Source: Glycomyces lechevalierae
GTDB lineage: Bacteria > Actinomycetota > Actinomycetes > Mycobacteriales > Micromonosporaceae
Length of the DNA stretch: 64,000 nucleotides
Assembly: GCF_027622945.1 (NCBI RefSeq)
Contig: NZ_JAPZVQ010000021.1
Location: 1 to 64,000, forward strand
Direction of reading: 5' to 3'
Position 1 is the first letter of the stretch. Every line of letters begins with the position of its first letter. Below the pieces are notes generated by a model. It did not search any database. It worked only from the letters and a program-made list of their open reading frames with translations, and was not told the DNA's origin. This document shows, piece after piece, positions 8,463 to 60,952 of this stretch. The position numbers and the translations under genes were made by a program.

Positions 8463-8563
8463 CGCCTGAGGTGTGCGCCTCCTTCTCGTTCGCTACCGCT
8501 TTCGAGTGCGGCGTAACGCCTGGAGCGCGCGTCTCCTTCTCGTTCGCTACTGCTTTCGAGTGA
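8456..8563 (+). repeat. Two 54-bp tandem units covering the MFS stop codon
   Basis: Units 8456-8509 and 8510-8563 match at about 46 of 54 positions. Unit 1 contains the MFS TGA stop (8460-8462); unit 2 repeats it as TAA (8514-8516) in the same frame. Both share a CTCCTTCTCGTTCGCTAC core. Confidence 0.88.
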
Positions 8564-8572
8564 AGATCGACG

Positions 8573-8599
8573 CCCGGGCCCGGATCGGGCCCGGGTCTT
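8573..8599 (+). terminator. Terminator of the MFS gene
   Basis: Perfect 10-bp stem (arms CCCGGGCCCG and CGGGCCCGGG, loop GAT) followed by TCTTG. It partly overlaps the start of the dispersed repeat copy. Confidence 0.75.
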
Positions 8600-8690
8600 G
8601 TCGTACCCCCGCGGAACGATCGAACGGCGCGACAGTCTCTTCCCCTCCAGTGGTGGGTGGGGGCTGTGGACGGCAGATCGGCGGGACTCC
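8588..8690 (+). repeat. Dispersed intergenic repeat, copy 1 (5'-divergent)
   Basis: This segment shares the order of blocks seen at 47288-47399, 57961-58080 and 60810-60931: a CCGGGT..ACCC-type hairpin with a TTGTCG loop, a variable stretch, CTTCCCCTCCAGTGGTG, a GGGTGGGGG run and a GGACGGC block. The 5' block with TCGGGTGACA is not recognisable in this copy. It lies between the convergent MFS and LAL genes. Confidence 0.75.
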
Positions 8691-47287: not shown

Positions 47288-47399
47288 ACTGTCAGACCAT
47301 CCCTAGCCCCCACCCACCCGGGGGACCGAACGTAGCTCCCACCGTCCCCGCCGGGTACGACGAAAACCCGGTCCCGGAGCGCCGATGTCACCCGAAAGA
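47288..47399 (-). repeat. Dispersed intergenic repeat, copy 2
   Basis: Read on the minus strand: TCGGGTGACA block, then the CCGGGT/ACCCGG hairpin with loop TTTCGTCGT, then CCCCCGGGTGGGTGGGGG and GGGATGG. It is oriented toward purB, whose start lies about 100 bp further on. The rest of the gap (47400-47575) carries an imperfect 18-bp direct repeat beginning GCGGTCCCGAAC at 47428 and 47477 and no gene. Confidence 0.75.
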
Positions 47400-47575
47400 G
47401 GACACGGCCGCGAACCACGCCGGGTGCGCGGTCCCGAACGCGCCAGCCGTGCGACCGCCGGGGCCGCGCCCGGCATGCGGTCCCGAACCCGCCACCCGCG
47501 CCGAAACCGCCCGCCGAGACCCCCTGAAGTCGCGGGCGCGCAGTCCCGAGTTGCGGGAACCACTCGGCGTGGCGG

Positions 47576-57900: not shown

Positions 57901-57960
57901 CCGCTCCCCGCGCCGCGGTTCGCGGTCATTCGACCCGCCGCCACCGGACCACCGCCACAC

Positions 57961-58080
57961 TTTCGGGTGACACCTTCGCCCGCGAGCCCGGTTTCTGTCG
58001 GCCCCGGGCGGGAAGCTTGCGGCGGACGCTTCTTTCCCCTCTAGTGGTGGGTGGGGGTTTGTGGACGGCGGTTCGGCGGG
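57961..58080 (+). repeat. Dispersed intergenic repeat, copy 3
   Basis: Blocks in order: TCGGGTGACA (57964), GCCCGG..CCGGGC hairpin with TTTCTGTCGG in the loop (57986-58009), variable stretch with CGGCGGACG, TTCCCCTCTAGTGGTG, GGGTGGGGGTTTG, GGACGGCGG. It runs straight into the -10 (58085) of the GlcD-type gene. Confidence 0.85.
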
Positions 58081-58084
58081 GCCT

Positions 58085-58090
58085 TACCCT
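58085..58090 (+). promoter_or_regulatory. -10 hexamer of leaderless GlcD-type transcript
   Basis: TACCCT, 6 nt before the ATG at 58097; no Shine-Dalgarno sequence. Confidence 0.5.
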
Positions 58091-58096
58091 CGCGGG

Positions 58097-59461
58097 ATGA
58101 GCGATCTGATCTCCGCGTTGACCGCGGCCGGGCTCGAGCCGGTGACCGATGCCGATGTGCTGGCCTCGCATTCGGTGGACCGCGCCGCGCTGGTGCCGCC
58201 CGGGCGGGCCGTCGCGCTCATCCGGGCGCGGTCGACCGAGGAGGTCAGCGCCGCGCTCCGGGTCGCCGCCGAGTTCGGCACTCCCGTTGTGCCGCAAGGC
58301 GCCCGCACCGGCCTCGCCGGGGCCGCCACCGCCGTCGACGGCGCGATCCTCCTCGACGTCTCGCCGATGGACCGCATCCTCTCGATCGACCCCGTGAACC
58401 GCCTCGCGGTCTGCCAGCCCGGCGTGCTCAACGCCGCGATCACCCTCGCCGCCAGCGAATTCGGCCTCCGCTACAGCCCCGACCCGGGCTCATGGCAGAT
58501 CTCCACCATCGGCGGGAACATCGCCACCGCCGCCGGCGGCATGTGCTGCGTCAAGTACGGCACGACCCCGGAGTACGTGCTCGGCCTCGAAGTCGTGCTC
58601 GCCTCAGGCGAAGTCATGCGCTGCGGCCGCGACACCGCCAAAGGCGTCGCCGGGTACGACCTCGTGCGCCTCTTCTGCGGATCCGAAGGGACCCTCGGGG
58701 TCATCACCGAGGCCACGGTCAAGCTCTCCCCCGTCCCCGCCGGGCGGCTCACCCTCGCGGCCGTCTTCGCGACCACCGCCGACGCCGGCCGCGCCGTCAC
58801 CGCGATCATGGCGTCCGGGGCGCAGCCGAGTCTGCTCGAACTCATCGACAACGTGCACCTGCGTGCCCTGGAAGACTTGCGGCCCATGGGATTGCCGACC
58901 GAGGCGGCCGCGATGCTGCTCGTCGCCGCGGACTCCGACCCAGCCGAGGAACTGGCCGCGATCGAAGCGCTCTGCAACGAATCCGGCGCCTCCGAGGTCT
59001 ACCGCGCCACCGACGCCGAAGAGGCCGACGCGCTCCTCGAATCACGGCGCAGCGCCTACCACGCCATGGAGCGTCTGGGCACGGTCCTCGTGGACGACAT
59101 CGCGGTGCCGCGCTCGCGCCTCGCCGAAGCGCTCGACGGCGTCCAGGCCGCCGCGGCCAGGCACGGCGTGGTTATCGGCGTCATCGCCCATGCAGGAGAC
59201 GGGAACCTGCACCCCAACATCATCGTCCACCCCGAGGACCCGGCCTCGCTCGAAGCCGGCCGGGCCGCGTTCGACGAGATCCTGGAGATGGCACTCGCCA
59301 TGGGCGGCACCATCACCGGTGAACACGGCGTGGGAATACTCAAACGCGATTGGCTCGCAAAGGAAGTCGACCCGGTGAATCTCGCGGTGCAGCGACGGAT
59401 CAAAAGCGCGCTCGACCCGCTCGGCATCCTCAACCCGGGGAAAGTCCTTGCAGCTGGTTGA
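58097..59461 (+). CDS. FAD-linked 2-hydroxyacid oxidase/dehydrogenase (GlcD-type)
   Basis: 454 residues. FAD-binding (PCMH) domain: VVPQGARTGLAGAATAVDGAILLDVSPMDRI, QISTIGGNIATAAGGMCCVKYGTT, GSEGTLGVITEATVKL. The C-terminal FAD-oxidase domain has VIGVIAHAGDGNLHPNII and EHGVGILKRDWL. This is the architecture of glycolate, D-lactate and D-2-hydroxyglutarate dehydrogenases; the acid cannot be told from sequence. Leaderless ATG. It ends just before three hairpins. Confidence 0.92.
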   Translation: MSDLISALTAAGLEPVTDADVLASHSVDRAALVPPGRAVALIRARSTEEVSAALRVAAEFGTPVVPQGARTGLAGAATAVDGAILLDVSPMDRILSIDPVNRLAVCQPGVLNAAITLAASEFGLRYSPDPGSWQISTIGGNIATAAGGMCCVKYGTTPEYVLGLEVVLASGEVMRCGRDTAKGVAGYDLVRLFCGSEGTLGVITEATVKLSPVPAGRLTLAAVFATTADAGRAVTAIMASGAQPSLLELIDNVHLRALEDLRPMGLPTEAAAMLLVAADSDPAEELAAIEALCNESGASEVYRATDAEEADALLESRRSAYHAMERLGTVLVDDIAVPRSRLAEALDGVQAAAARHGVVIGVIAHAGDGNLHPNIIVHPEDPASLEAGRAAFDEILEMALAMGGTITGEHGVGILKRDWLAKEVDPVNLAVQRRIKSALDPLGILNPGKVLAAG

Positions 59462-59538
59462 AAGGCGCTGTGAGCGGCGGGGACTCACATTCCCTATGCG
59501 GCCGAGACGGTTTCGTGTCGTTCCTGTTACACGTTAAT

Positions 59539-59572
59539 GGGGCCGCAGCGCTTGCCCATTCGCTGCGGCCCC
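59539..59572 (+). terminator. Terminator 1 after the GlcD-type gene
   Basis: A 12-bp perfect stem GGGGCCGCAGCG / CGCTGCGGCCCC around a 10-nt loop, 78 nt after the stop. Confidence 0.8.
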
Positions 59573-59575
59573 GAT

Positions 59576-59597
59576 AAAGTGGAGGAGCTCCACTTTT
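59576..59597. terminator. Terminator-like hairpin 2
   Basis: A 9-bp perfect stem AAAGTGGAG / CTCCACTTT, loop GAG, with A and T runs on either side, so it can work in both directions. It is much more AT-rich than its surroundings. Confidence 0.65.
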
Positions 59598-59605
59598 CAT
59601 TGGCA

Positions 59606-59640
59606 CCAGTAGGGCTGTGCCCGATTGCCCTTACTGGTTT
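59606..59640. terminator. Terminator-like hairpin 3
   Basis: CCAGTA-GGGC pairs with GCCC-T-TACTGG (one bulge, 11-nt loop) followed by TTTTG. Third hairpin in 100 bp. The rest of the gap to 59793 has no supported gene. Confidence 0.55.
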
Positions 59641-59793
59641 TGTGCCCCCGGATTGTTCCGTGCCTCCCGGAAGACTGCCCATGTCCGTCCGTTTGGCTTG
59701 TCGGCGTGACCGGAACACTCATTACTATGAGGACCGTCTCTGGGCGTGGCCTGTACTGAGGCTGGGAAGAACCTGGGAAACGATGTCAAACCG

Positions 59794-60648
59794 TTACTCG
59801 GGGACCTCGAAGCCGGCGAGTTTGTCCAGCTCAGCCGTGATGTCGGGGCGCTGATCGACCACTTCGCCGTCGATCTGGGTGATGAAGGCCACACCTCGTA
59901 CGGAGGAGCTGAGCCACGCCGCTTCGGCGTTCTTCAAGTCCCGCACCGAGATCAGCTTCTCGACGGTCTTCAATCCCGCCTTCGGCGCCTGCTCCAGCAG
60001 GTACGCGCTCGTCGTGCCCGGCAGGATGCCCGCGGAAGTCGGTGTCGTGCAGAGGGTGTCGCCCTCCAGCCACAGCAGGGACGAGGTCGGGCCCTCCAAG
60101 GCGAACCCGTCGGCCGAGACCCACAGGGCGTCGTCCGCGCCCTGGGTCTTCGCCCAGCGGGTCACCGCCATCATCGACGCGTACGAGAGTGCCTTGACGC
60201 CGCCTAGAAGCCACGGGGCTTCACCCCGCGCGTCGGCATTCACCCCCAAGGTCGCAGTGGCGATCTTCAGGCCGTCCCGGCGCGGCAGGATCCGTTCGCG
60301 CGGAACGGGATCGACCGTCGCGTAGACGGTCGGCGGGCCGCCGTGCTCGCGGCCGCGGGTGGCGACCAGGCGCAGCGCGCCCTCTCCGTCGGCCCGCTCG
60401 CGCCAGGCCTCCAGGGCCTGCTCGGCGAGCTCGGCCATGTCCTCCTTCGCGGGGAGCTCGAACTCCATGCGGCGCGCGGAGTTCGCCATGCGGTCGAGGT
60501 GCTCCGAGAGCAGGAACGCCTGCCCGGCGCGGACGTTGATGGTCTCGAAGACGCCGTCGCCGCGGAGGACTCCGAGGTCGTCGGCGCACAGGAGCGGCGC
60601 GTCGGAGTCGACGACGCCGCGGTGCAGTACTGCGGTCACTAGTGCCAT
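59794..60648 (-). CDS. Aminotransferase class IV, aminodeoxychorismate lyase-like
   Basis: 284 residues, fold type IV PLP enzyme. The PLP Lys is in GGVKALSYAS; GDGVFETINV, the Arg of MANSARRMEFELP and EGPTSSLLW follow the PabC/D-amino-acid/branched-chain order. PabC (4-amino-4-deoxychorismate lyase, folate synthesis) is the best fit given length and the folate-linked YgfZ nearby, but D-amino-acid or branched-chain transaminase activity is possible. ATG at 60648 has a weak GGAG 12 nt upstream. Confidence 0.85.
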   Translation of the reverse strand: MALVTAVLHRGVVDSDAPLLCADDLGVLRGDGVFETINVRAGQAFLLSEHLDRMANSARRMEFELPAKEDMAELAEQALEAWRERADGEGALRLVATRGREHGGPPTVYATVDPVPRERILPRRDGLKIATATLGVNADARGEAPWLLGGVKALSYASMMAVTRWAKTQGADDALWVSADGFALEGPTSSLLWLEGDTLCTTPTSAGILPGTTSAYLLEQAPKAGLKTVEKLISVRDLKNAEAAWLSSSVRGVAFITQIDGEVVDQRPDITAELDKLAGFEVPE

Positions 60649-60733
60649 GCGCTCATTGTGCTCCTCGGCCCGAGCCGGGCCGCCACGGCGAGGCACCGTG
60701 TCGAAGCGCGGCGTCGCGGCGCGGCATCGCCGC

Positions 60734-60778
60734 GGTGCGGCGGTGCGGCGGTGCGACGGTGCGGCGGTGCGGCGGTCC
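60734..60778. repeat. Tandem 9-bp repeat
   Basis: About five units of GGTGCGGCG (one with GGTGCGACG) in the 316-bp gap upstream of the aminotransferase gene. No gene is seen in the gap otherwise, apart from the dispersed repeat copy. Confidence 0.8.
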
Positions 60779-60809
60779 CGCCTCGCATCGGTCCGCCCGC
60801 TGCTCTGAA

Positions 60810-60931
60810 ACGCCCACCCGCCGTATAGCCGTCCTCAAACCCCCACCCACCACGAGAGGGGAAGATACTGCCGCCAGCGTCCCAGCCGGGTCCGACAGAA
60901 ACCGGCCCCCGGGCCGCCCTTGTCACCCGAA
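60810..60931 (-). repeat. Dispersed intergenic repeat, copy 4
   Basis: Minus-strand orientation, reading toward the aminotransferase gene: TTCGGGTGACA block, GCCGG..CCGGC hairpin with TTTCTGTCGG in the loop, CTTCCCCTCTCGTGGTG, GGGTGGGGGTTTG, GGACGGC. Its other end is about 20 bp from the -10 of the Fur-family gene. Confidence 0.85.
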
Positions 60932-60952
60932 CGTGTTGCTCCGCCAGCGCAG

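Follow-up and report, generated by a model that had tools for sequence, protein, structure and literature searches.

What is the element of about 118 base pairs (bp) that recurs between the genes of a 64,000-nucleotide stretch of Glycomyces lechevalierae (contig NZ_JAPZVQ010000021.1, positions 1 to 64,000 of the forward strand; this whole stretch is called the window below), and what reads it? An examination of the letters alone, here the sequence-only reading, had listed four copies with a common order of blocks and had proposed that they are either a structured RNA or a protein site. All four copies were recovered and are confirmed as real members of a dispersed family. Their locations stood, with small corrections to the coordinates: copy 1 starts 35 bp further to the left than had been assumed and its left block is degenerate (TTTCGAGTGA), and the C block of copy 2 is of the short form (GGTCCCCCGGGTGGGTGGGGGCTAGGGATGG) and not CTTCCCCTCTAGTGGTG. 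The interpretation that we favour, with about even confidence, is that the family is a genus-specific, dispersed promoter cassette that would depend on an activator and be read as double-stranded DNA.

The dispersal noticed in the window extends through the genome and its relatives. A sequence-only covariance model (R1), built from 41 copies, identified 31 members at E < 1e-5 in the genome of 5.6 Mb to which the window belongs. With at most 150 first-look candidates scored per genome, the same model detected the family at E <= 0.001 in 19 of the 22 genomes from the genus, with up to 47 copies in one genome; G001, G003 and G020 have none, G015, G012 and G021 have 1-3, and the other 16 have 13-47. 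When 150 genomes of the family were searched with stricter filters, 18 gave a match, 15 of them from the same genus, and the three others had one weak match apiece. A blastn search over 60 relatives added a weak match in G026, again from outside the genus. With copy 3 as the query, blastn found 14 places in its own genome, including itself, at E < 1e-6; copy 2 reached only E 0.08 in that search and 2.1e-15 with the family model, which was built from copies that include copy 2. The C-block pattern occurs 3 times in the window, each time in a different one of the four copies, where 0.07 matches would be expected. All copies were found via similarity to the early ones; 216 unique copies were fetched and analysed, and the genus-wide counts sum to more than 400. 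Literature searches, covering few subscription papers, found no description of the cassette, and comparison of the window with Rfam 15 at gathering scores gave only a tRNA, in line with the earlier remark that no described element with these blocks was known.

The conserved region, delimited on 81 copies, extends from about 5 bp left of CTTTCGGG to some 3 bp beyond the right end of GGAYGGC. The operator-like palindrome of block A reads TCACnCkTTCGGGTGA, or in full TCACnCkTTCGGGTGACA. It has the form TCAC-N8-GTGA, which is not that of the CRP site. Block B is TTnnTGTCGnACCC-N7-A-N3-T-N-G. The B pattern of the later scans requires A, T and G at the three positions (in one scan A and T), and 209 of the 216 copies passed it. 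Because the pattern demands these bases, their invariance in the copies that passed is due to selection of the copies; the same columns are also invariant in the 41-copy alignment, which was made without that demand. In the short type of the cassette a hexamer nAnnnT lies 27-29 bp past the T of TGTCG in block B in 115 of 128 copies, with the form TAnnnT in 95, and no other offset has it in more than 8 copies, apart from +16, where it is built in. The G-run of block C occurs in three forms: the long type is CCCCTCTAGTGGTGGGTGGGGGTTTGTGGACGGC, the short type is CCCCGGGnGGGTGGGGGTTAGGGATGG, and type III is marked in addition by a conserved TTACGACGGTAAGAA-like stretch between A and B, in the spacer. 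The suspicion that the G-run is capable of forming a quadruplex was borne out by its motif content: of 128 short-type C blocks, 114 contain a strict four-tract G-quadruplex motif, which is absent from all 256 control windows taken from the same copies. All 61 long-type C blocks fit such a motif only with one-base bulges allowed, a looser pattern applied without a control, and none of the 8 type III copies has one.

The distance between blocks A and B bears on whether the cassette is read as DNA or as RNA. It was counted between TTCGGGTGA in A and TGTCG in B, accepting only a best match that was unique and had no more than two mismatches, at 22-69 bp. The 193 measurable copies have distances of 33-34 bp (138 copies), 43-45 bp (51), 47 bp (2) and 55 bp (2). 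With copies grouped into loci by a common neighbour protein and one representative taken per independent locus, 83 of 83 fall at 33-34, 43-45 or 55 bp. Among the loci with longer spacers, 29 of 29 are at 44 or 55 bp, give or take 1 bp; 7.0 would be expected if spacer lengths from 36 to 60 were equally likely, and the highest number in 20000 draws was 17. The spacing class also differs between species at eight orthologous loci, one of which rests on the 47-bp reading in G005; the site at the flavin adenine dinucleotide (FAD)-linked oxidase gene, for example, has 34 bp in G000, G014 and G005 and 44 bp in G002 and G017. Intergenic repeats of bacteria are commonly regarded as selfish DNA or as folded RNA. 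Here the spacing changes by whole helical turns, also between orthologs, which is evidence from natural evolution that proteins read a dispersed repeat from one face of the DNA.

The blocks are retained at orthologous sites where the surrounding sequence is lost. Over 306 ortholog pairs the identity is 0.79 in A, 0.74 in B and 0.83 in C, as compared to 0.37 and 0.35 in the flanks; it is 0.57 in the A-B spacer (237 pairs of equal length) and 0.45 in the -10 stretch when this is aligned at a rigid offset. Of the 22 genomes, 12 have a copy at the ispH site, with constant sense and varying subfamily, and 12 have one at the purB-purD site. In G002, where PurB is 98% identical, both the purB-purD copy and most of that gap are missing.

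A structured regulatory RNA or small RNA was the main idea of the sequence-only reading, which had described a conserved hairpin with covarying stems. Complementary stems can be seen by eye in some copies, and a compensatory stem can be drawn there, but it is not supported across the family: no covariation was found over 41, 81 and 209 copies, and RNAalifold on 41 copies gave 8 pairs at -4.6 kcal/mol, with a two-sided change in one pair. The stem at the TTTCTGTCGG loop was compared with versions in which the 5' arm was exchanged among copies. In 209 copies the native value was -12.17 and that with shuffled partners -12.10 (standard deviation 0.16), 68 of 200 shuffles being as low; in 81 copies the values were -12.03 and -12.09 (standard deviation 0.26), with 176 of 300 as low. 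A covarying hairpin at this loop was rejected since its stability is unchanged by shuffled partners. Pairing of block A with block B, for which CGGGTGACA and TGTCnnACCCG look complementary, was rejected as well, the native pairing being weaker than the shuffled one in 200 of 200 cases. The longer A-B spacers do tend to fold on themselves (mean z -1.57, 55 copies), more than those of the 34-bp class (mean z -0.56, 138 copies; simple shuffles in both), and a local hairpin could form in them. The window copies have no Rfam match, the spacing shifts by turns of DNA, and conservation of the blocks is explained by helical phasing of DNA sites rather than by RNA pairing. The sequence-only reading had itself named a lack of supported covariation as a result that would tell against it, and for the RNA this was the result obtained. 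We consider an RNA very improbable; the protein site, which had been offered as the other option, is the part of the proposal that held.

The palindrome of block A is also used outside the elements. With up to three mismatches it has 92 matches in the genome, of which part are the elements themselves and a few are counted on both strands, versus 7 for a reversed control. The sequence TCACYCGNNCGRGTGA, with one mismatch, occurs 13-37 times in 15 element-rich genomes, 34 times in the further genome G009 and 4-14 times in the other six, with 0 to 2 control matches per genome (4 in G020). One such use is upstream of DUF222 genes: Pfam PF02720 was found in 4 of 4 proteins tested, and HNH in the one that was read far enough. 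At 6 of 6 DUF222-type sites fetched (the four protein-tested ones and two of the same layout) an nAnnnT hexamer, CAnCAT or TAACAT, starts exactly 31 bp past the block-A anchor; two further sites that fit the search pattern lack the hexamer, and no gene was called after them. Within the elements, this anchor and the -10-like hexamer are 62, 72 or 83 bp apart, which is 31, 41 or 52 bp more, and the palindrome is thus about 3, 4 or 5 helical turns closer to the -10 at the DUF222 genes. In genome G000 about ten places carry TCACTCTATCGGGTGATG, several of them near contig ends (C3:1010, C7:995, C21:776, C12:567844); these are probably copies of the upstream region shared by a multicopy family of DUF222 genes, and the one place fetched precedes such a gene.

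A further use is in the gap between lexA and nrdR, where the perfect 16-mer TCACCCGnnCGGGTGA is present in 15 of 22 genomes, all element-rich (L445, L450-L471), and the 18-mer with an additional T and A in 14 of 22. It is distinct from a LexA-box-like site nearer to lexA, which is kept in nearly all genomes. The six genomes with 0-3 copies also lack the palindrome in this gap; in G020 the upstream stretch does not align and may be another region. LexA was rejected as the protein that binds block A, as it is 94-97% identical in palindrome-free genomes (98% in G009). Separately, a TCACTCGATCGRGTGA palindrome was seen between the 3' ends of convergent genes that by eye look like an XRE-type regulator and a methyltransferase (L442, L472, L473, L479).

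In the promoter mechanism that we favour, a putative activator, X, would bind the block A palindrome, block B would serve as a non-standard -35 region and TAnnnT as the -10 hexamer. This would place the start of transcription within the G-run of block C or immediately upstream of it; a G-quadruplex could then form in the first bases of the transcript or in the non-template strand. If the start is assumed to lie 12 bp past the first -10 base, the palindrome is centred at -42.5 at DUF222 genes and at -73.5, -83.5 or -94.5 in the elements. X would then be on the same helix face as RNA polymerase in the elements, in phase with an X site at about -42.5 of the DUF222 genes, which would correspond to class I and class II geometry. 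The distances between palindrome and predicted core promoter are helix-phased, as expected of an activator site, when judged by spacing in the sequence.

Several observations weigh against this mechanism. The -10-to-start distance is an assumption, the predicted start is not tied to one particular base and in long-type copies it is often in the C-run, and the conserved A at B+17 and T at B+21 are left unexplained by the promoter model. In the long type TAnnnT is found at 27-30 bp in only 26 of 61 copies and nAnnnT in 46, and up to 11 of the 61 have nAnnnT at another offset; of the 8 type III copies none has the hexamer at this place. G009 has 13 copies but lacks the lexA-nrdR palindrome. The downstream gene has the same direction in only 106 of 206 copies, and the FAD-linked oxidase, purB and aminotransferase genes of the window seem, by eye, to have a start-proximal -10 of their own.

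Neighbouring genes were called with a simple custom script, not a standard gene finder, and context was obtained for 206 of the 216 copies, those below 28 bits, from other genera or without called neighbours being dropped. Among these, 74 copies are convergent, 62 tandem sense, 44 divergent and 26 tandem antisense, and the 85 independent loci divide into 32 convergent, 22 tandem sense, 17 tandem antisense and 14 divergent. Convergent gaps seem favoured, since only 4 of the 23 gaps of at least 120 bp in the window are convergent, although this comparison is small. Three of the four window copies had been claimed to read into the 5' end of the following gene, and they are indeed directed at a gene start, that of purB (156 bp away), the FAD-linked oxidase (29 bp) or a class-IV aminotransferase (181 bp); copy 1 sits between convergent genes. 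Yet the cassette is not, in general, the promoter of a particular neighbour, and the same contexts rule out a leader or riboswitch of the downstream gene. Because copies occupy all kinds of gap in both senses, the cassette would probably act as its own small transcription unit.

Such indifference to gene direction would also be expected of a site of chromosome architecture, where a nucleoid, segregation or replication protein complex assembles on all three blocks and the -10-like hexamer is incidental. This main rival of the promoter mechanism is, in our judgement, rather unlikely. It agrees with the uneven distribution in G000, where contig C1 (804 kb, the largest seen) has no copy at E < 1e-5 and C14 (87 kb) has four, and with the bare palindromes between convergent genes; the phasing would suit any pair of proteins on one DNA face. 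A chromosome site leaves TAnnnT at a fixed offset hard to explain, as well as the promoter-like place of the palindrome upstream of DUF222 genes.

The dispersal, the three subfamilies, the close similarity of five type III copies within one genome and the frequent position between convergent genes could instead reflect a non-autonomous mobile repeat, of the repetitive extragenic palindrome (REP), miniature inverted-repeat transposable element (MITE) or mobile-promoter type, which spreads and is merely tolerated. Low copy numbers (0-3) in 6 sister genomes and presence or absence at orthologous sites point the same way. No consistent target-site duplication was found in 186 copies, however, the best scattered cells of about 2100 holding 1-10 copies, and the blocks are retained while the flanks are lost. 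The ends of the consensus are by inspection neither inverted repeats nor complementary, no dedicated scan having been run, and no transposase is linked, though transposase families were not searched for. Origin from a phage or plasmid was rejected, as no match was found in plasmid and phage collections, and the exact A-to-B pattern had no match in viral contigs. Mere mobility is in our view an unlikely explanation; mobility and function can both hold, and spread is compatible with the promoter as well as with the chromosome site.

A different promoter within block B, of the PafBC type that acts in the RecA-independent DNA damage response, was also considered. PMC5656591 gives the PafBC motif as tTGTCRgtg, 8 nucleotides, TannnT, and both TTGTCGG and the distance to AnnnT in the cassette equal this motif; a related site with TACGCT is found at recO. 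In all 189 short- and long-type copies the first base of the hexamer in block B is G, A or C and never T, and about 12 bp further downstream there is a better -10. Because the T is absent and this better -10 exists, PafBC was rejected as the principal explanation and is highly unlikely to account for the family. The recO site itself is TGTCGGACCC-N6-TACGCT, a few bases before the GTG start of the gene, as in a leaderless gene (L427 at about 1497; G000 C30:207696). A second, shorter dispersed motif was also noticed, TGTCGnACCC-N7-A-N3-TTG or TCG followed after about 4 bases by CGGGGG, with no obvious block A and a non-T base before the A; it is possibly a sister family. One B-like site in another genus stands before a gene that had been labelled AlkA-type by eye; the label was dropped, as Pfam gave no match.

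If the favoured promoter mechanism applies, the elements, the DUF222 genes and lexA-nrdR, together with the putative activator, offer a testable regulon. Because the elements share their operator with the DUF222/HNH genes and the lexA-nrdR region, one may speculate further that an element-rich genome holds 13-47 self-contained, activator-switched transcription units that start in a G-quadruplex and form G-quadruplexes or R-loops on command, for example under DNA stress; we regard this as a long shot. The features of the four window copies are collected in the table. Short tandem GGTGCGGC-like repeats, seen by eye at window positions 60720-60778, adjoin copy 4.

Table. Coordinates of the cassette copies and their blocks in the window (whole elements in model coordinates), and places of the second, shorter motif in G000.
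Feature	Position	Strand	Remarks
Copy 1, whole element	8553..8674	+	convergent gap, MFS transporter gene / LuxR-type regulator gene
Copy 1, block B	8595..8622	+	one mismatch to pattern
Copy 1, block C	8642..8674	+	long type
Copy 2, whole element	47297..47398	-	divergent gap, purD / purB
Copy 2, block A palindrome	47386..47403	-	three mismatches to pattern
Copy 2, block B	47339..47366	-	one mismatch
Copy 2, -10-like TACGTT	47329..47334	-	28 bp past T of TGTCG position; read from sequence
Copy 2, block C	47297..47324	-	short type, G-quadruplex motif; read from sequence
Copy 3, whole element	57960..58069	+	upstream of FAD-linked oxidase gene at 58097
Copy 3, block A	57955..57972	+	one mismatch
Copy 3, block B	57992..58019	+	one mismatch
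Copy 3, weak -10-like GACGCT	58025..58030	+	read from sequence
Copy 3, block C	58036..58069	+	long type
Copy 4, whole element	60828..60933	-	divergent gap, class-IV aminotransferase gene / Fur-family gene
Copy 4, block A	60921..60938	-	two mismatches
Copy 4, block B	60874..60901	-	exact match
Copy 4, -10-like TATCTT	60862..60867	-	30 bp past T of TGTCG; read from sequence
Copy 4, block C	60828..60863	-	long type
Second motif, places	G000 C10:23559, C15:83578, C16:53234, C23:252587, C30:209323, C32:118121		loci L413, L420, L421, L422, L427, L428

The cassette shares features with several known systems. At Escherichia coli CRP promoters, according to PMC6301791, the activator is centred at -41.5 (class II) or at -61.5, -71.5/-72.5 or -81.5/-82.5 (class I), with a periodicity of 10.5 bp. 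An activator site near -42, or upstream of it by steps of helical turns, would be common to both systems; unlike CRP promoters, the cassette is repeated and dispersed, and its activator is putative. With the PafBC or RecA-NDp promoters of actinobacteria, as described in PMC5656591 and PMC11804915, it has in common TGTCGG and the spacing to an AnnnT hexamer, but it differs from them in the missing first-base T, the extra downstream -10 and the upstream palindrome. REPIN, ERIC, BOX and Correia repeats (see also PMC3116915 and PMC2759123) are similar in size range, intergenic dispersal and division into subfamilies, whereas the cassette has no inverted-repeat ends by inspection, no duplicated target that could be found and a quantised internal spacing. 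Mobile promoters (Matus-Garcia 2012, as cited in PMC8049555) are likewise short repeated intergenic DNA with an apparent promoter and species-variable presence. The cassette is repeated in the same way and its promoter activity is predicted; unlike mobile promoters it has a helix-phased operator, a G-run at the predicted start and block-wise conserved retention at orthologous sites, and it shows no clear preference for driving a neighbour. By its sequence features, the cassette thus appears to resemble mobile promoters, other dispersed intergenic repeats and, in its geometry, class I activator promoters.

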